Shown here piece by piece: positions 2,804 through 64,000 of a stretch of 64,000 bases of DNA. The translations under genes were made by a program, and so were the position numbers. The stretch's first letter is position 1, and each line of letters begins with the position of its first letter. Source of the DNA: Bacteroidales bacterium (GTDB lineage Bacteria > Bacteroidota > Bacteroidia > Bacteroidales > UBA932); the NCBI GenBank assembly GCA_017501525.1, contig JAFVWT010000011.1, positions 1-64,000 on the forward strand, given 5' to 3'. The notes beneath the pieces are model-generated. The model had not been told where the DNA came from. It saw only the letters and a program-made list of their open reading frames with translations, and did not search any database.

Positions 2804-4120
2804 CTAATCGTATCTATATTTTACAAACCAAATGTCGTGGAGATTAAAATTAATCATAAAGTTTACATATCTCTCACGCGCAAGATTGTGCTTAAGTGTT
2901 CCCCTTTGCCCCATATTAACCGCAAAAGTGACTCCGTTATACAACCTCAATATCGGGAATGTAGCACCTAAAGTAATACCAAAAGAGTTTATCTGATGAC
3001 CGTTCAAAGAGATATATGATTGCTCAAAATAAGCTCCTGCACGATAAGTAACTCTCTTCATATAATATCTTACATCATACCTGTTTGGGGTTATTTCAAA
3101 ACCTGCCTTATAATATCTTGCAGTTGCAGGAGTAAAGTTTATGACATCACTATAATCATTAAACACACTGTTGTGCCAATTCTGTTGTATAAAATCAACC
3201 CCTACTGACCACTTGTCCTTCTTCCTGTACGATAAACCGACTCCGAACTCGTCAGCAATATCAAGTCTGATATCGTTTTTTGTCTGAAACAAGACAGTAT
3301 CGACTACAGTTGAAGATTGCGATTGGGACATAGCATATCTGAACACATCCCCCTTGAGAGAATTTCCCATTCTGTATGTAGCTCCAATGACAAGTTCTCC
3401 ATTATTTTTGAACGGCTGGGAATACTGGATACCAAACTTACCTGAGAATGAGTGCACCTTATATTTCCATCCGGTATATATGGTATTATTGGAAACTGAA
3501 GAATTGAAAAGAATATCACTATGTCTGTCGATATATCCAAAATAATAGAGCATCTGCGCCCCTATCGAGAGTCTGTCCCAAAAAGTTACACCTGCCCCAA
3601 AAAATAATTGGTACAAACTTCCTGTACCATATTTCTGGTATTTTACATCCCCAAGTTCGCCCACGATTGCATCCGAATCCTCTATTTCGAGAAATTTATA
3701 TCCCACATCACTAAACGGCGCTATACCAATCACAAATGCAGAACTCTTGTAAATTGGAGCGGTAAAGGCAAAATTCTGCATATTGAAAACATTATATGCT
3801 GAACGGTTCTTGCCATCATAATTATACATGTTCTTTTGAGCTATACCAAAGTCAAGCATAAATGACAAAGTATCTCTTGCGGTAACAGCGGCCGGATTCA
3901 AGTAATTGATAATGCGGTTATCTCTCATCCCTATACCAATTCCTCCCATAGACATATTGTATGAAGTGCCGGCATCGGACAATTGCCCCAAACCATATAA
4001 AGAATAAGGGGTGTAAGTACCCAATGCATCTGTTTTCTGTCCCCTCATTATAAAGACAGAACAAACACATAAAAATAGAGAGAATACTAATCTTTTTCGT
4101 GCCACACTACCCATTTTCAT
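2804..4120 (-). CDS. outer-membrane beta-barrel protein, FadL/PorV-like
   Basis: A 438-residue protein with a signal peptide ending near residue 27 (VFIMRG-Q). After it comes a segment with NPAAVTARDTLSFMLDFG, resembling the conserved start of the FadL/OmpP1 and PorV barrel families, then alternating hydrophobic/aromatic strands through to an aromatic-containing C-terminus (DIWFVKYRYD). It is probably an outer-membrane barrel; the substrate is unknown. The start overlaps the 3' end of coaX by 14 bases. An internal Met at codon 3 is an alternative start. Confidence 0.65.
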   Translation of the reverse strand: MKMGSVARKRLVFSLFLCVCSVFIMRGQKTDALGTYTPYSLYGLGQLSDAGTSYNMSMGGIGIGMRDNRIINYLNPAAVTARDTLSFMLDFGIAQKNMYNYDGKNRSAYNVFNMQNFAFTAPIYKSSAFVIGIAPFSDVGYKFLEIEDSDAIVGELGDVKYQKYGTGSLYQLFFGAGVTFWDRLSIGAQMLYYFGYIDRHSDILFNSSVSNNTIYTGWKYKVHSFSGKFGIQYSQPFKNNGELVIGATYRMGNSLKGDVFRYAMSQSQSSTVVDTVLFQTKNDIRLDIADEFGVGLSYRKKDKWSVGVDFIQQNWHNSVFNDYSDVINFTPATARYYKAGFEITPNRYDVRYYMKRVTYRAGAYFEQSYISLNGHQINSFGITLGATFPILRLYNGVTFAVNMGQRGTLKHNLARERYVNFMINFNLHDIWFVKYRYD

Positions 4121-4832
4121 TCATTTGTACAATATCGGACAAACCATTCAATACTAAATTACAAACTACAAATATGGTGGATTTCAATATTTTTGCAAAA
4201 AAAATTGAATCACCTCCCGTAAAAATAATTTTATGAGAAGGAAATCTCCTTATATACTCTTCAATTTCAAAGACTATGCCTAAAACCACTCCATTATTTA
4301 TGGCTTCAGTGGTAGATTGACCATTAATCTGCTTCGGAAAAGAGGGCTCCACTAAAGGTAATTTATTGGTATAGTGGTGCATAGCCTTAAACCTCATAGA
4401 CATTCCCGGAGATATGTTTCCCCCTTTAAAAAGACCGTTTTTACCTATAAAATCAATAGTTATAGCAGTTCCAAGATCAAAAACAATACAATCATCCTCA
4501 GGAAAAAGTGAATGTGCTCCAACTGCTGCAGCTATTCTGTCAACTCCTAATGTATGAGGAGTATCATATCCGAGCCTTATCGGAAGAGGAGTGTCACAAG
4601 AGAGAATCACTACCTCTATCCCCCTCTTTTCCAACCTTTCTACAATATGCTGATAACCACCCGAAACGGACGAAATAATACATTTGTGAGCATTAGAGCT
4701 ATCTGCAATCTCCCCTATTCTATCATAAGAGTGCTGATGCTCAATACGATATACTTTCAACAACTTTCTTCCGTTACATAAAGCAACCTTACAAAAAGTA
4801 TTGCCAATATCTATAAGAATATAATTCTTCAT
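4107..4832 (-). CDS. coaX: type III pantothenate kinase
   Basis: CoaX phosphorylates pantothenate, the first step of coenzyme A synthesis. The 241-residue protein shows the family's phosphate and substrate motifs: DIGNT at residues 8-12, GVDR at 96-99, DLGTAITID from 119, and GGNISPGMSMR, all of the ASKHA kinase fold. The length is normal for the family. Its start codon lies one base past the mfd stop, and its end overlaps the barrel gene by 14 bases, so mfd, coaX and the envelope genes are likely cotranscribed. Confidence 0.95.
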   Translation of the reverse strand: MKNYILIDIGNTFCKVALCNGRKLLKVYRIEHQHSYDRIGEIADSSNAHKCIISSVSGGYQHIVERLEKRGIEVVILSCDTPLPIRLGYDTPHTLGVDRIAAAVGAHSLFPEDDCIVFDLGTAITIDFIGKNGLFKGGNISPGMSMRFKAMHHYTNKLPLVEPSFPKQINGQSTTEAINNGVVLGIVFEIEEYIRRFPSHKIIFTGGDSIFFAKILKSTIFVVCNLVLNGLSDIVQMNENG

Positions 4833-4833
4833 A

Positions 4834-7800
4834 CTATAACTTTGAAACCAAATTATAAGCTCCTTCTATTGTTCTGACATTCTGAACCGATATATACAAC
4901 TTGTTATTTTGTTCTTTAAGCTGATACCTGTTACTGTCCTTAGATTGGATATTCTTGATAATTTCGGCAAATTTAGCAGTTCTATAATAAGATGACATGG
5001 AATTGCTTATAAAATATAGCACCAACTTTTCATTCTTAAGTACAATCTTTTCAAAACCCCTTTGGCGCGCAGCCATCCTAAGTTTGACAACAAATATAAG
5101 TTGTTTGAACTCAGGTGGCATTTTTCCAAATCTATCCTCAATGTCGCATATAAATCTATTTAAAGAATCCTCATCCCCGATAGAATCAAGTTCCTTGTAC
5201 AACCTGATTTTTTCTGCAGTAATATTTATATATGAATCAGGTATCAACACTTCAAGATCGGTATCGATAAGACAATCGGCACAATAATAACCATTATTAC
5301 TCTCTTCAGAATATGGAGACTCTTCCAAAGTACCTTTTATCTCTTCAAAAGCTTCAGCCAAGATCCTCTGATAAGTCTCTATACCCATCTCAGCAATATA
5401 TCCACTTTGCTCAGCCCCCAACATATTTCCCATACCTCTGATATCCAAATCTTGCATAGCTATATTAAAACCACTTCCCAAATCAGAAAATGCCTCTATA
5501 GCATTCAATCTTCTTCGTGAATCATCTGAGATATTAATCATTTGAGGTACGATAAGATAGCAGAATGCCTTCCTATTGGAGCGCCCTACCCTTCCACGAA
5601 GTTGGTGCAAATCACTCAATCCAAAATTCTGTGCTTGATTAATGATGATTGTATTGGTATTTGGAATATCTATCCCATTTTCTATAATTGTTGTTGCCAA
5701 AAGAATATCATAATCCCCTGACATATAATCCAAAATTTTATTTTCAAGAACTTTTGGTGCCATTTGACCATGAGCCACACAAATTCTCACCCCCGGAACT
5801 ATCCTGCGCAATATATCTTCAACTTCTTGAATATCATGAACACGATTATGCACAAAAAATATTTGCCCTCCCCTTTCCAACTCATCATTTATTATGTCTC
5901 TTATAAGTTCTTCATTGAAATCAATTATCTCAGTCTGAATCGGAAGTCTGTTGGGAGGAGGAGTATTTATTATTGATAAATCCCTCGCCCCAAGCAAAGA
6001 AAACTGTAATGTTCTCGGAATAGGAGTAGCACTTAAAGTAAGAGTATCTACCGATAATTTCAAAGTACGTAATTTCTCCTTTGCCGCAACCCCAAATTTC
6101 TGTTCTTCATCTATGATTAGCAAACCCAGATCCTTGAACACTACATCCTTATTAAGAATTTTATGTGTTCCAATAAGAATATCTATTTTTCCATCCTTCA
6201 ATCTCTGTACAATTGAATTTATCTCTTTAGTAGTTTTTAAACGACTGACAAACTCCACATTACAAGGGAAATTACCCAATCTCTCCATAAAAGTATTATA
6301 GTGTTGCAAAGCCAGGATGGTGGTAGGAACAAGAACAGCCACTTGTTTGCTGTCGGCCACCGCTTTAAATGCTGCCCTGATTGCCACTTCTGTTTTACCA
6401 AATCCAACATCTCCACAAATCAGTCTGTCCATAGGAGAGTTGCTCTCCATATCCTTCTTCACCTGATCTACAGCTTTTATTTGATCGGGGGTCTCCTCAT
6501 ATTTGAAAGAAGACTCTAACTCATGTTGAAGATAAGTATCGGGAGAAAAGGTAAATCCCTGGGAAACCTTTCTCTGGGCATACAATTTAATAAGATCATT
6601 GGCAATATCCTTAACCTTAGATTTAGTCTGATTTTTGAGTTTCTCCCAATTACCTGTACCCAATTTATTTATTCGAGGAGGCTTTGATATATCCCCTGAG
6701 CGATATTTTGAAATACGATGAAGACCATGAACAGATACATAAAGTACGTCATTATCTCTGTAAATCAATTTTATAGCCTCCTGCACTTTCCCATTTATTT
6801 TATTTTTTACCAACCCTCCAAATCTCCCTACACCATGATCTATATGAACAATATAATCACCCTCTCTAAAGGAATTTATATCATTAAGGGTAAGCCTTTC
6901 ACTTTTTTCTACAGTTCTTTTGAGCTTAATTCTTCTGTACCTGTCAAAAATTTGATGGTCGGTATATAGACACACTTTTGTATCTTTATCTATAAATCCC
7001 TCATGAATAGTAAAATCACAATACTCCAATATCAAATCGTAAGAAGAAAATATACTCTTTAGACGATTGATTTGGGAATTGTTTTCACTCATTATATATA
7101 TATGGTACCCCTGATCCCTTTTTGATTTTATATCTTCACTAAGGAGTTCAAAATTTTTGTTGAATACAGGTTGAGGAACTACATTGAATTGCACTCTGGC
7201 ATCATAACACATATCATCCCTTATAGCTCCGAGATACACTTTTTTATTCCTAATCTCATAATCGGGATGTACATATTGCTCAATTCCTGATATCCACAAC
7301 ACACTATCTTCAGGAATATTATCAAAGAAAGGGACTCCTCTTCCATTGTTATCTGAAAAATCGACAATATTCGGATAAACCATTATCTGATTCTGCTCTA
7401 AAATTGTCCTTTGGGTATTCGGGTCAAATATTCTTATACTTTCCACCTCATCCCCAAAGAAATCAACCCTGAAAGGCTTGTCATTGTGATATGAAAACAA
7501 ATCAACAATCCCACCTCTGACTGCAAATTCACCAGGTTGAGATACAAAGTCAACTTTTACAAAACCACTAGAAAACAATATATCTGAAATACTACCAAAA
7601 GGAACCTTATCCCCTATCTTTATTGTCAATATGCTTTCACCTATCGATTTTTCTGAAGGGACATTTTCCAGAAATGAATCGGTATAACCTACAATAACAA
7701 GATATTTACCTTTATATATACCTTTATTATATTCAGAAATTGCACTTATAGCTGATGTTCTTTGGACTTTGGAAGAAACCTCCCTTACAGAACCCTTAGC

Positions 7801-8367: not shown

Positions 8368-9399
8368 ATGGCTATGATTTCTGACAACGAAAATTTTGAT
8401 GCAAGAGTTCAAAGCCTCAACAAAGATAACGATTTTGAGGGAAAAATAAGACCTTCCGACTTTGAAGATTTTTCAGGTCAGGAAAAGATTATCGAGAATC
8501 TCAAAATCTTTGTTAAGGCTGCTCTTTTAAGAGGGGAGGCTCTCGACCATATATTATTGCATGGCCCTCCCGGATTAGGAAAGACTACTTTGGCTCATAT
8601 TGTGGCCAGAGAGTTAGGTGTAAATATGAAAATAACCTCAGGTCCCATTTTGGATAAACCGGGAGACCTTGCAGGGCTTCTTACTTCTTTGGATGAGGGG
8701 GATGTTTTGTTTATAGATGAGATTCATCGTCTATCCCACATTGTAGAGGAATATCTCTATTCTGCAATGGAAGATTATACTATTGATATAATGATAGACA
8801 AAGGACCGGGGGCAAGATCTGTTCAGATATCTCTCAATCATTTTACTTTGATAGGAGCTACAACCCGTAGTGGAATGATTACTTCTCCCCTTAGGGCAAG
8901 ATTTGGAATTCAGGCTCACTTGGAGTATTATGATTCTTCTGTGCTGTTTAAGATAATTAAAAGAAGTGCATCCATTCTCAATATTGAGATAGAGGATAGG
9001 GCTGCCACAGAGATAGCGATGAGGAGTCGAGGAACTCCAAGAATAGCCAATTCACTTTTAAGGAGAGTGAGGGATTTCGCTCAAGTAAAGGGCAGCGGTT
9101 ATATCGACCTTGAAATAGCTTCCTATGCGCTTGATTCACTCAATATAGATAAGAGAGGACTTGATGCTGTAGATAATAAGATACTTACTACTATAATTCA
9201 CAAATTCAAAGGTGGTCCTGTGGGAGTTGGAACCATAGCTACTGCTGTAGGTGAAGATGTGGGTACTTTAGAAGAAGTTTATGAGCCATTTTTGATAAAG
9301 GAAGGATATATTCATCGTACCCCAAGAGGTAGAGAAGTTACAGATTTGGCTTATGAGCATCTTGGAATTAATAAATTTGAAACAGGGCTTCTGTTCTAA
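8368..9399 (+). CDS. ruvB: Holliday junction branch-migration helicase RuvB
   Basis: RuvB is the hexameric AAA+ motor that drives branch migration with RuvA. The 343-residue protein shows Walker [11 protein letters not shown] at residues 65-74, Walker B with DE at 117-118 ([10 protein letters not shown]), the RuvB-specific segment [15 protein letters not shown], a [12 protein letters not shown] sensor 2/arginine region and a C-terminal winged helix with [17 protein letters not shown] second Met at codon 3 is an alternative start. ruvA is at 27507-28091, unlinked in this window. The glycosyltransferase gene starts 25 bases downstream. Confidence 0.97.
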
Positions 9400-60623: not shown

Positions 60624-61763
60624 ATGAAAAGTATTGTTAAGTTGGCTTTTTTATGTTTCGCTTTGTTACTGCTTTGGAATTGCAGTAAGGAGGAGCCTCA
60701 AAATCATACTACTCTTGAGCTTGAGTCTATTGAGTTCACAAATATCGAGGGGAGTAGTTTGACTTTATATCCGGGAGATAGATTTCGTGTCAAATACAGC
60801 TTGGATCCCGAAGAACTTGAGGATATAATTGAATTGGAGTGGAGTAGCAGTAAAGAGGATGTAGCGGAGGTGGATGAGGATGGTAAGATTACAGCTTTGG
60901 ACCTTGGTCGCACCGAAATTACCGCTTCGTACGGCGATGTGGAGGCATCATTTTTTGTAGATGTTGTGGAACTGACAGTTACAGACTTTGCCATTCCTGA
61001 GATAGTAGAAATAATGGAGGGTGAAGTAGTTGAGATTTCGGTAACCGGTATTGAGCCCGCCGGAGCATCGCTTTCCACCATAGATTGGGAAATTTCAAAT
61101 GACTCTTATGCTGAATGTTATGTAGAGAATAATAAATTGTATGTCAGAGGATTGGCTGCGGGAATCGTCACATTGTATGGTCGGTCTGGCGAGGTTACTC
61201 GAAGTTGTGAGGTGGAGGTAAGTGGTGCTATCTCGGGCCGCGCGTATGTTGATTTGGGTTTGCCGAGTGGATTGAAGTGGGCGACATGTAATGTTGGTGC
61301 AGAAAATCCTGAGGATTATGGTAATTATTATGCATGGGGTGAGACAAGTACCAAATCGGAGTATACTGAAGAGAATTCATTGACCTATGGGGAAAATATG
61401 TCAGATATATCCGGTAACGATACATACGATGTGGCCCGTAAGGAGTGGGGAGGCAGTTGGCGTATGCCTACTGAATCAGAGTTTGAAGAACTCTTAGAAG
61501 AATGTGAATGGATATGGACAACACAAGGAGGAATTGAGGGGTATGAAGTAATAGGTCCAAGCGCAAAAAGCATTTTTCTCCCTGCTGCGGGCTGGCGCGG
61601 GTCGTCCCTCCACGGTGCGGGAAAGTCCGGTCTCTACTGGAGTTCTACGCCTGACGGTACGAACGGTGCGTACGCGTACTACCTGCACTTCGATAGTTCC
61701 CTCCACTACATGCTTCGGGGCTACCGCGACTACGGGCGAAGTGTCCGTCCTGTTTCAGAATAG
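60624..61763 (+). CDS. lipoprotein with Ig-like repeats and DGR-type variable C-terminus
   Basis: A 379-residue surface lipoprotein (signal LAFLCFALLLLWNC-SKEEP). Residues about 30-125 form a BIG2-like Ig domain (YPGDRFRVKYSLDPEE; GKITALDLGRTEITASYGD), 130-205 a second one, and 210-379 a Fib_succ_major/C-type-lectin-like domain (RAYVDLGLPSGLKWATCNVG, WGGSWRMPTESEFEELLEEC, IFLPAAGWRG). The end, SGLYWSSTPDGTNGAYAYYL ... DYGRSVRPVSE, has fixed residues interspersed with NNC codons at positions that are Asn in template-like relatives. That is the signature of a DGR target. The last 170 bases are much richer in GC than the rest. A start at 60573 is possible but lacks a signal at the terminus. Confidence 0.85.
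   Translation: MKSIVKLAFLCFALLLLWNCSKEEPQNHTTLELESIEFTNIEGSSLTLYPGDRFRVKYSLDPEELEDIIELEWSSSKEDVAEVDEDGKITALDLGRTEITASYGDVEASFFVDVVELTVTDFAIPEIVEIMEGEVVEISVTGIEPAGASLSTIDWEISNDSYAECYVENNKLYVRGLAAGIVTLYGRSGEVTRSCEVEVSGAISGRAYVDLGLPSGLKWATCNVGAENPEDYGNYYAWGETSTKSEYTEENSLTYGENMSDISGNDTYDVARKEWGGSWRMPTESEFEELLEECEWIWTTQGGIEGYEVIGPSAKSIFLPAAGWRGSSLHGAGKSGLYWSSTPDGTNGAYAYYLHFDSSLHYMLRGYRDYGRSVRPVSE
61594..61757 (+). other. candidate DGR variable region (VR)
   Basis: From GGCTGG to the GAA before the stop, GC-rich in a low-GC gene. Between 61653 and 61739 the codons GAC, AAC, TAC, TAC, TAC, CAC, TTC, TCC, CTC, CAC, TAC, GGC, TAC, CGC, GAC and TAC alternate with fixed residues, fitting AAC template codons mutated at their two adenines. 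The non-mutable tail AGTGTCCGTCCTGTTTCAG would be the initiation-of-mutagenic-homology side. Confidence 0.7.
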
Positions 61764-61795
61764 AAGCGTAAGCGTATTTGACCTTGATGAATTTA

Positions 61796-62002
61796 GATAC
61801 CCGGTCGGGGCCGGGTATGACGATGAAATCGTCATGTCGGGGATGACTTTGTCAGGTCGGTGATGACGTTAGGTTCCTGTTAAGACGGTGAGGATATTTG
61901 ATTTTGATTAAGGTCGTGAATGAGGTTAAGTTTCGTTTACGTCGTGGATGATGTTGGTTTTGTTACCTATTACGTCATGACCGGCTTAACCGGTCATCTC
62001 AA
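61796..62002. repeat. short palindromic repeats after the DGR-type target
   Basis: TACCCGG-6-CCGGGTA (61798-61817), GATGA-AATCG-TCATG and CGGGGATGAC units, and TGACCGG-CTTAA-CCGGTCA (about 61978-61996). Same family as 35271-35659. The whole stretch 61764-62570 has no intact gene. Confidence 0.65.
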
Positions 62003-62074
62003 TTTATTGGGGTGGTGTGATTGTAATATCTTTCTCCTTGGTTTTATCTGGGTGGTTTTGTGTTCCTATGGTGG

Positions 62075-62229
62075 TGGTTGGCGGGAGAGAGGTGGTTTTA
62101 CCTTGGAGGTTGTGGTTGGAATGGAGGGTGGTGGTATTGGGCTTTTCGAAGGGTCGCGGCTTTGCCGCTTCCTTCTCTTTTGACAACCCCCAGACCCCCT
62201 TTTAAGGGGGCTTTGGTCGCTGGCGCTCC
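62075..62229. repeat. 155-bp duplicated repeat, first copy
   Basis: From TGGTTGGCGGGAGAGAGG to TGGTCGCTGGCGCTCC, about 85-90% alike to 62407-62566. Centre carries the perfect palindrome CCCCCTTTTAAGGGGG (62195-62210). Open frames across it are shadows. Confidence 0.8.
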
Positions 62230-62289
62230 TGTGTTCCTAAGTTCCTATGTCTTGCTTTTGGGTTTGTATGTAGGTGGTCACTTAATGTG

Positions 62290-62360
62290 ACGTTGTCATC
62301 CCCGACTTGACGAAGTCATCCCCGACCTGATCGGGGATCTCTGGAATCTCAGGGATCTCT
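62290..62360. repeat. CCCCGA-family palindromic repeat
   Basis: TCATCCCCGACTTGACGAAG then TCATCCCCGACCTGATCGGG with GATCTCTGGAATCTC tail; the second unit folds as CCCCGA/TCGGGG. Closely matches the unit at 35480-35525. Confidence 0.7.
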
Positions 62361-62406
62361 GAATAATAGAAATCAAACCTATAGCGGCCCATTTTCTTTT
62401 GGTATC

Positions 62407-62566
62407 TGGTTGACGGGAGAGAGGTGGTTTTACCTTTAGGACAGTGGTTGGAATGGAGGGTGGTGGTATTCTGCTTTTCGAAGGGTCGCGGCTTTGAATA
62501 GCCGCTTCCTTCTCTTCTTACAACCCCTAGACCCCCTTTTAAGGGGGCTTTGGTCGCTGGCGCTCC
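62407..62566. repeat. 155-bp duplicated repeat, second copy
   Basis: Second copy of 62075-62229 with a five-base insertion; palindrome CCCCCTTTTAAGGGGG at 62532-62547. It abuts the reverse-transcriptase-like fragment, so its arrival may have removed the upstream part of that gene. Confidence 0.8.
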
Positions 62567-62572
62567 GAAGAT

Positions 62573-62836
62573 CCATTGTATAAGGATGTCAGACAAGTAG
62601 AATGTGCCATTAATTCATATTTAGGTGTTTTTTCTCATTATAATAGTTACTTTCTGAGAAGAGAATTATTCGGTTATATGGCAAGATTGAGTAAATATGG
62701 GTCTTTTTCAGAAGATTATCTGAGGTTCGTTCCATATTTTAAGGATGAGGTATTTAGAAATATATATATCTTTGTCCTTTTAATGGTTATATTGATTTTT
62801 AAATTTTATAAATATCTTCAGAAACTTTGTAAATCT
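62573..62836 (+). pseudogene. C-terminal fragment of a DGR/retron-type reverse transcriptase
   Basis: An open frame without a start codon (open from 62543, after a TAA in the repeat). It reads KDVRQVECA then INSYLGVFSHYNSYFLRR, the thumb/C-terminal motif seen at the end of DGR-type and related bacterial reverse transcriptases (NSYLGxxxHxxSYxLRxK). After that FGYMARLSKYGSFSEDYLRF continues in kind; the last 25 codons are hydrophobic and may be decayed. The polymerase core, with YADD-type motif, is absent. The frame joins the next gene without a stop. Assignment is by motif memory, not by alignment. Confidence 0.6.
62767..62774 (+). promoter_or_regulatory. -7 box for the LPP20-like gene
   Basis: TATCTTTG, exact TAnnTTTG, 62 bases before the ATG at 62837, inside the reverse-transcriptase relic. 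It argues that the downstream gene is expressed separately rather than as a fusion. Confidence 0.5.
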
Positions 62837-64000
62837 ATGAAAAGAGCATTATTTCTTGCAGTGTCGCTGTTGTGGGCTTTTGTTGGTGTGTGGGGACAGG
62901 AGATAGATTTGAGTAATAATACTGTTTATACTTCTGATAAAAATTATTGTGGCGTCGGATATGGTAAGACTGTCGCTGAGGCTAAGGATGCAGCTTTGGC
63001 TGATCTGATTAGAAGTATCGCAGTGAGTGTCAAGCATGAGTTTGTAAATCTTGGTGTACAGGAGGGTAAGGATGGAGAAGTGGAGTATGAGCAAAAGGTG
63101 GAGAGTTGTCTTCGCACCTACTCTCAGGCGACTCTTACAAATGTGGAGTTTATGATGCTCAGGGAGGAGAAGGACAATGTGGCTGTGTTGTGTTACATTG
63201 AACGTTCGGAACTGCATCGTATATATGAGGGGAGGATTAATAAGGCTAAGGCTTTGGCATCGAGGGCAGATGAGTGTCTTGCTGAGAAGAGGCTTGATAT
63301 GGCACTTCAATATTATTATGCCTCTTATTCTTTGATTCGTTCAGTGCAGCATCCCAATGAGGTTCTCGATGACAACGGCAAAATGTTGATTGCCGAGATT
63401 CCTATGAAAATCAGGGATATTCTTCAAGGTATTACTGTTACTTTTAAGGAAAAGGAGGATGATATTTATGTTGATTTGTTGTTCTTTTACAAGGGGGAGC
63501 CTATTTCAAGTCTTGATTTTGAATATAATGACGGCAGGTCATTCTGTCCGTCAAGGGTAAATAGAGGTAATGGTAGTCTGCAGATGATAGAGGGTTATCA
63601 GGGTGATTTTTATCACATAAGAATCGAGTATGAGTATATGGGTCAGTGGCGTGGTGACGAAGAGATGGAGAGTGTGATGAATGTCCTTACAAAGAGGGTG
63701 TTTAAGGAGGCAACTCATACAATCAAGGCTCAGCCGGGAGCTCATTCGCAAAGGGAGACGGGCGATGTGACTGTTTCATCAAAAAGAAAACATACCGCTT
63801 CACAACTCTCTTTCGAACAGATGCAGAGTGCTGCTCAAGTGCAGCTTAATCCATCTGAATCCCAATTGGTTAGTGAAAAATATAGTTACGAACAGACCTA
63901 TAATCAGGTTCTTTCTGCCATAAAGGCAAGGAAGTACAGTGATGTGATGGATTGTTTTACTATTGAGGGATTGGATGTGTTCAACAGATTGATTGCTTAT
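62837..64000 (+). CDS. LPP20-like secreted protein, partial
   Basis: 388 codons are visible and the gene runs off the right edge. A signal peptide (MKRALFLAVSLLWAFVGVWG) precedes an LPP20-like alpha/beta domain: VGYGKTVAEAKDAALADLIR near 41-60, then VKHEFVNLG and an ERSELHRIYEGR helix. A helical TPR-like segment (KALASRADECLAEKRLDMAL) and further beta-rich domains follow. Such proteins are envelope-associated in Bacteroidetes; function unknown. The frame continues upstream into the reverse-transcriptase fragment, but the signal peptide and the promoter box favour the ATG at 62837. Confidence 0.75.
   Translation, partial: MKRALFLAVSLLWAFVGVWGQEIDLSNNTVYTSDKNYCGVGYGKTVAEAKDAALADLIRSIAVSVKHEFVNLGVQEGKDGEVEYEQKVESCLRTYSQATLTNVEFMMLREEKDNVAVLCYIERSELHRIYEGRINKAKALASRADECLAEKRLDMALQYYYASYSLIRSVQHPNEVLDDNGKMLIAEIPMKIRDILQGITVTFKEKEDDIYVDLLFFYKGEPISSLDFEYNDGRSFCPSRVNRGNGSLQMIEGYQGDFYHIRIEYEYMGQWRGDEEMESVMNVLTKRVFKEATHTIKAQPGAHSQRETGDVTVSSKRKHTASQLSFEQMQSAAQVQLNPSESQLVSEKYSYEQTYNQVLSAIKARKYSDVMDCFTIEGLDVFNRLIAY

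Follow-up and report, generated by a model that had tools for sequence, protein, structure and literature searches.

Background

Proteins with the type of C-terminal domain considered here have been described before as targets of diversity-generating retroelements (DGRs). According to the accessible part of the human-microbiome survey, DGR targets in that habitat include 9 Fib_succ_major, 47 DUF1566 and 9 Big_2 proteins, one of the Fib_succ_major targets is a predicted lipoprotein, and in an Ig-like target all 15 substitutions fall at template adenines (PMC4159848). Most DGR targets of Treponema denticola carry lipoprotein signals, and the excerpted report describes isolates of this species with targets whose variable regions (VRs) are mostly adenine-limited and for which no reverse transcriptase (RT) or template was identified, which its authors read as leftovers (PMC4891356). 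Diversification at incomplete loci has been reported and action in trans explored, as the available sections state (PMC10907252). Surveys have mined DGR-like RT genes near imperfect repeats; a large one among them acknowledges, in its accessible text, that remote targets would escape it (PMC8144416).

The locus analysed here lies in the window, i.e. the whole stretch of 64,000 nucleotides under study, which is part of contig 9 of a Bacteroidales genome of 1.53 Mb (82.8% complete). Its product shares the C-terminal domain type with the human-microbiome DGRs, but these keep their template and RT, as far as the accessible text goes, whereas the window has an RT relic of 53 aa in cis only and a template was not found (PMC4159848). 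Unlike the T. denticola leftovers as excerpted (PMC4891356), the lost core is marked here by a physical RT fragment, beside a repeat block. Pseudogulbenkiania sp. NH8B, in the part of the report available, resembles the window in having a dead RT near distal targets; a remaining RT was inferred by the authors in that case, whereas none was found in the genome of the window (PMC3521204). FISUMP-type DGR targets and leftover targets are already known, and what the window locus adds is the RT fossil; a literature search on DGRs in general returned no description of the locus. The locus shows that paralogues which contrast in the codon positions at which they differ can reveal a DGR target even where RT and template are missing, and that the former site of an engine may still be marked by the decayed end of its RT. 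In addition, it makes testable whether DGR-made diversity is retained and stays in use after the engine has died.

Results and discussion

A putative lipoprotein with a variable tail

The target gene (Table 1) encodes a protein of 379 aa in which a lipobox-like LLLLWNC was noticed by eye. The protein contains Big_2 domains (Pfam, E=9.6e-13) and a C-terminal domain whose Lcl_C match (E=3.2e-8, 34.3 bits) is 0.6 bits short of the Pfam cut-off of 34.9, and whose TIGR02145 FISUMP match (E=4.5e-5, 24.2 bits) lies below the cut-off of 41.65. The domain-alignment profile (A4) matched no PDB sequence at E<=0.01.

Reading by eye placed the first variable codon at 61593-61595 and the last at 61737-61739, in agreement with the location that a first-pass annotation of this DNA had given for a diversified C-terminal stretch; SVRPVSE and the stop follow at 61740-61763. 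The annotation's description of this tail as GC-rich and built mostly from NNC codons holds as well: the GC content is 0.619, versus 0.437 in the remainder of the gene, and 23 of the 49 VR codons are of the NNC type, versus 42 of the 323 upstream codons of the same gene (Fisher p=1.9e-7). When stop-to-stop frames of at least 150 aa on both strands of the window were scanned, at least 23 NNC codons occurred in 39 of 17,193 sliding 49-codon stretches; among the per-frame maxima listed two frames reach 23, namely that of the VR gene and a minus-strand frame at ~63091 that overlaps the next gene (62837) on the opposite strand. That fixed residues alternate with free ones, as claimed, is confirmed by the consensus of 58 aligned domains (PAAGxRxGSSLxxxGxxGxYWSSTPxESxxxxAYxLxFxSxxxxxxWxxRxxGxSVRPVSE), except that the methionine listed as fixed is a variable position (ATG in the window, ACG in the paralogue on contig C18).

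Table 1. Features of the target locus and its downstream region (positions in the window)
Feature	Position	Strand	Basis
DGR target gene, putative lipoprotein with Big_2 and C-terminal Lcl_C/FISUMP-like domain	60624..61763	+	Pfam, TIGR02145 matches
Variable region (VR), 49 codons, NNC-rich	61593..61739	+	Codon composition, paralogue and template comparisons
Constant 3' end of VR (SVRPVSE and stop), probable homing-anchor (IMH-like) side, role inferred	61740..61763	+	
59 bp past the stop, 97% identical to the sequence after the C18 VR	61764..61822	+	
Intergenic repeat block, 83% identical to the block downstream of the C18 VR	62063..62574	+	
Relic of a DGR RT C-terminus, 53 codons, no stop	62576..62734	+	Homology to L186 RT
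Next gene, weak LPP20-like match	62837..64000 (to ~64738 on contig)	+	LPP20 E=0.0019, below cut-off

Codon-position signature among paralogues

As a DNA query against its own genome (E<=1), the VR recovered itself and the coding tails of two other genes, at C18:24869-25082 (77% identical) and C4:101875-102087 (68%), and no template. The template repeat for which the first-pass annotation had suggested a genome-wide search was thus not found in the 82.8%-complete assembly. More diverged members of the family are present at C7:141372-141902 (40% identity) and C10:2986-3216 (E=0.007); both were inspected as candidate templates and neither is template-like, the one on C10 being coding.

Between the window and C18 copies, codon positions 1, 2 and 3 differ 14, 14 and 4 times over 47 VR codons, versus 13, 12 and 29 times over 90 codons upstream (Fisher p=0.00018), which corresponds to a third-position identity of 0.91 in the VR and 0.68 upstream; a protein-guided alignment gave 16/17/8 in the VR and 13/14/35 upstream. 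The upstream pattern is that of ordinary divergence. Changes at positions 1 and 2 with the third position kept point to overwriting from a single template with errors at chosen bases; amino-acid selection does not produce them. Three of the four third-position differences (TGG/TAT, TAC/AAT and CGA/CAT) could reflect template adenines or gap placement, and the simplest account of the fourth (TAC/TAT) is an ordinary mutation. The SVRPVSE codons are without difference between the two copies (7/7), and the stop codon that follows them differs (TAG in the window, TAA in C18). Three further VR codons sit in gaps between the copies, for which DGR copying provides no explanation and which therefore count against the explanation favoured below. 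For the C4 copy the signature is weaker (16/19/17 versus the window, p=0.01; 15/15/16 versus C18, p=0.018). In a congener, G010, the three copies differ 14/11/3, 16/14/6 and 17/16/7 times in the VR, with matching upstream differences of 17/19/35, 17/17/30 and 25/27/50.

Cassettes in relatives and the adenine test

The absence of template-like copies from related genomes had been named beforehand as an argument against a DGR; templates are, in fact, present in relatives. Within the family, G544:C9 (locus L115) and G597:C42 (L105) each hold a cassette that combines this tail domain with a template and an open RT; another such cassette, L186, derives from the MAG 'Prevotellaceae bacterium AH.B5_2' (G694). 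In the case of L186 the order on one strand is target (Pkinase and Lcl_C), MutS-like ORF, Avd, template and RT. The Avd, for which the family search covered L186 alone among the FISUMP cassettes, matches phrog_3206 (E=5e-22) and, both below cut-off, NF033474 (E=4e-14) and PF22296 (E=1.7e-8); the MutS-like ORF is so labelled since its truncated homologue in G010 weakly matches MutS domain I. All three cassettes are like the window locus in their tail domain and have target, template and RT in this order on one strand; they are unlike it in that the RT is open and the template present and, for L186, in that the target is a protein-kinase fusion.

As observations on the side, the target of the L186 cassette (L186:6588-11091) is a protein kinase fused to a FISUMP variable tail, and the extra ORF between target and Avd (8639-9127) has relatives in L152, L170, L180, L084, L057 and L066. 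An IMG/VR contig (L045) holds a FISUMP-type pair of a template-like and a variable stretch (1702-1882 and 3526-3706; 181 bp, 75%), together with an ORF that looks integrase-like by eye.

In the cassettes of G544:C9 and G597:C42, which served as positive controls, all differences between template and target fall at adenines (17/17 and 22/22) and none at third positions. As the genome of the window gave no template, the adenine test was carried out with the templates of relatives only. The differences between the window and C18 copies fall at 26 of 46 adenine sites versus 16 of 119 other sites with the L186 template, at 28/52 versus 14/113 with that of L234, and at 20/37 versus 22/128 with that of G544; the alignment near the two-codon gap probably inflates the non-adenine counts. 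For the C18-C4 differences and the G544 template adenines, p=0.24. Judged from these alignments, the VR differences are concentrated at template adenines with third positions kept, as would be expected of a DGR target. A VR on another contig of G694 (L157) differs from the L186 template 17/5/2 times at positions 1/2/3, with 21 of the 24 differences involving A (p=0.006 versus upstream), a signature which indicates that remote targets with the FISUMP tail domain occur.

An RT relic downstream of the target

At 0.8 kb downstream of the VR lies a same-strand stretch, continuous in frame with what leads into the next gene, that is 53-54% identical to residues 443-495 of the 498-aa L186 RT ORF. A comparison of the DGR-type RTs gathered in this analysis with the final 14 kb of the window gave a match from 62579 to 62734 (52 residues, 54% to the L186/L235 RT, E=1.2e-13), and the L186 ORF as a query against the whole genome recovered the relic at E=7.9e-13 and no further RT piece in the 82.8%-complete assembly; the template part of the L186 query found the three VR genes and, weakly, C10 (E=0.007). 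Among 1260 frames, real and reversed, a profile of 22 RT C-termini ranked the relic-bearing one, which is open from 62543, first (E=4e-10), followed by a reversed decoy (0.059). The relic has no Pfam, PHROG or NCBIfam match. Compared with the usual cassette order, the template and accessory genes are missing between VR and relic, and the RT ends 0.97 kb after the target stop, versus ~2.56 kb in L186. The gene that follows (62837) is regarded as a mere neighbour, and we do not claim it as a member of the system.

The repeat block between VR and relic occupies the place that the accessory genes, the template and most of the RT have in L186, and its alignment with the C18 block stops one base short of the relic match. 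The block holds two copies of a G-rich sub-repeat (62075-62229 and 62407-62566; 90-95% identical), which is also present downstream of the C18 VR gene. Separately, a dispersed palindromic intergenic repeat of this 1.53-Mb genome is found at 61780-61870 and 62288-62340. The palindrome at 61797-61818 was considered as a DGR target hairpin and rejected, being part of the dispersed repeat and not DGR-specific: a 107-base query (61764-61870) yielded 63 own-genome matches at E<=10, many of them over the palindrome part.

Search for an engine elsewhere

The 82.8%-complete assembly has no RVT_1 match and, at E<=0.01, no match to the DGR-RT profile; the relic was missed by both, presumably because it is merely the C-terminal end. 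Thus, neither an RT of the DGR clade nor a template for the VR is found in the same assembly, the RT being represented by the relic only. RVT_1 matches occur in 7 of the 18 congeners, and those of G011 and G001 are RTs with an SQ motif that have other targets, the one in G001 being located beside genes that are phage-like by eye. On the latter contig (G001:C61; L083:5874-14000), a DGR-type RT, an N-rich template-like stretch, an open-ended target of 2055 aa and phage-like genes (by eye) were observed. A search for a viral origin of the VR in 50,697 phage records gave no match at E<=1e-3; the pattern GGNNNCTACTGGAGTTCTACGCC has 0 matches in IMG/VR, and contig L045 from that collection, with 1 match to a template-like pattern, was discarded as a source of the VR for being too different. 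A looser form of the template-like pattern has 0 matches in 393 genomes of the order, which carries little weight, since the pattern would also miss the L186, G544 and G597 templates.

Origin and fate of the variable region

Taken together, the VR is very probably DGR-made, its cis core having been lost by deletion or replacement, and it would now be frozen unless an RT elsewhere acts in trans. The first-pass view of the tail as a diversified target, in former times if not now, is supported by the shift in codon positions, the concentration at template adenines, the cassettes of relatives and the RT relic. A template repeat would have been reverse-transcribed with errors at adenines and copied over the VR and its C18 paralogue, AAC template codons thereby turning into NNC codons that give scattered residues. 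The diversified residues may form the binding surface, probably of the C-type-lectin type, of a surface-anchored protein. The cassette would formerly have been located directly downstream, with target, accessory genes, template and RT on one strand, until a deletion or replacement, in the place of which we now see the repeat block, left just the last ~53 RT codons; the order of these events is conjectural. With the local engine presumably dead, the VR would be a draw that no longer changes, provided that no RT acts in trans from an unbinned element or from the ~17% of the genome that is missing.

Ordinary positive selection combined with gene conversion among FISUMP paralogues, i.e. without any DGR, might be invoked because the tail is common in the family, because fast evolution is expected of binding surfaces and because the C7 and C10 members show that the domain also occurs without an evident VR. 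Selection on residues, however, would not fix third positions while positions 1 and 2 change, in genes of which the flanks diverge mainly at the third position, and neither the gathering of differences at template adenines nor a DGR-RT relic downstream would follow from it, so that we regard this reading as highly improbable. The RT peptide could also be unrelated to the VR, being a chance neighbour or a fragment of another retroelement, as it counts just 53 residues and the interval between VR and relic is rich in dispersed repeats. Yet its four best sources (L186/L235, L234, L233 and L109/L115) are RT ORFs that also come with a FISUMP-type template, it lies on the same strand, in the usual order and at 0.8 kb from the VR, and it is the sole RT match of the L186 query in the 82.8%-complete assembly; an unrelated origin seems very improbable.

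Much closer to the favoured explanation, and differing from it solely in whether diversification continues, is the possibility that only the local cassette is dead and that an RT and template on an unassembled, unbinned or mobile element still diversify the VR and the C18 VR. The assembly is merely 82.8% complete, the L157 VR of G694 shows that remote targets of this domain occur, the six VRs of RGIG6243 (see below) have 0-2 third-position differences while the genome has a single RT-profile hit without SQ motif, and the distal targets in Pseudogulbenkiania lie beside a strongly mutated RT with another RT kept, according to the available part of the report (PMC3521204). Against it stand the absence of RT and template from our searches of the assembly and the situation in G010, which likewise gave no RT and has a truncated MutS-like homologue and a transposase gene near its VRs. 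We consider continued diversification in trans possible but rather doubtful, and keep to a DGR-made VR that has lost its core in cis.

Tails and engines in related genomes

The 64-aa tail was matched in 100 of the 299 family genomes, and the DGR-RT profile at E<=1e-40 in 35 of the 299, a number that counts profile matches and not proven DGRs: a scan of 30 DGR-profile loci (L046, L047, L087-L114) revealed an SQ-type RT motif in 19 of them. The comparison of paralogues was limited to copies that fit the tail pattern, with repeated VRs dropped, and covered 4 of 7 loci in RGIG6243, 4/6 in RGIG6215, 4/9 in RGIG9059 and 2/3 in AH.B5_2. In RGIG6243, a sheep rectum MAG (L146, L149, L159, L176), at least six VR copies are present, the six compared have 0-2 third-position differences in 15 of 15 pairs, and no DGR-type RT was found by our searches, which gave one DGR-RT profile hit (E=8.6e-12) in a frame without SQ motif. 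The six pairs of RGIG6215 keep 4-9 third-position differences and the ten pairs of RGIG9059 keep 11-25 (p<0.03 in 16 of 16 pairs), from which we infer that the RGIG9059 VRs are old or derive from several templates. Some nearly complete genomes with FISUMP tails gave no RT by either search, G661 (95% complete) being one example; the signature is present in 6 of the 10 paralogue pairs of G661, and the 4 pairs with the L140 copy are without it (p 0.15-1). Likewise, no signature was seen in 2 of the 3 G680 pairs, for which 3 copies out of 5 listed were compared, or in the single G658 pair (p 0.15-1).

With the signature present and no DGR-type RT found, RGIG6243 and G661 are the sharpest cases of tails without an engine. 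It is conceivable, though we put it forward as a tentative idea, that in this group of gut Bacteroidales FISUMP tails made by DGRs survive the loss of their engines or are no longer tied to them. Sets of diversified paralogues would then be either frozen binding repertoires, retained after a core loss mediated by repeats or insertion sequences, or refreshed in trans by an RT on a mobile element that escapes binning.

In G010, RVT_1 and the DGR-RT profile recovered no RT, the MutS-like ORF of L186 has a truncated homologue beside one VR, and an IS256/IS1249-like transposase gene lies between two VR genes, as if the cassette were likewise broken. A further observation concerns G010:C28 (L085:1113-3581 and 4485-5771), where a TPR-caspase gene (Peptidase_C14, E=1.4e-22) has a DGR-type FISUMP target on its downstream side, two genes away, a layout that recalls the DGR-diversified sensors of conflict systems, as these are described in the available sections of PMC10907252.
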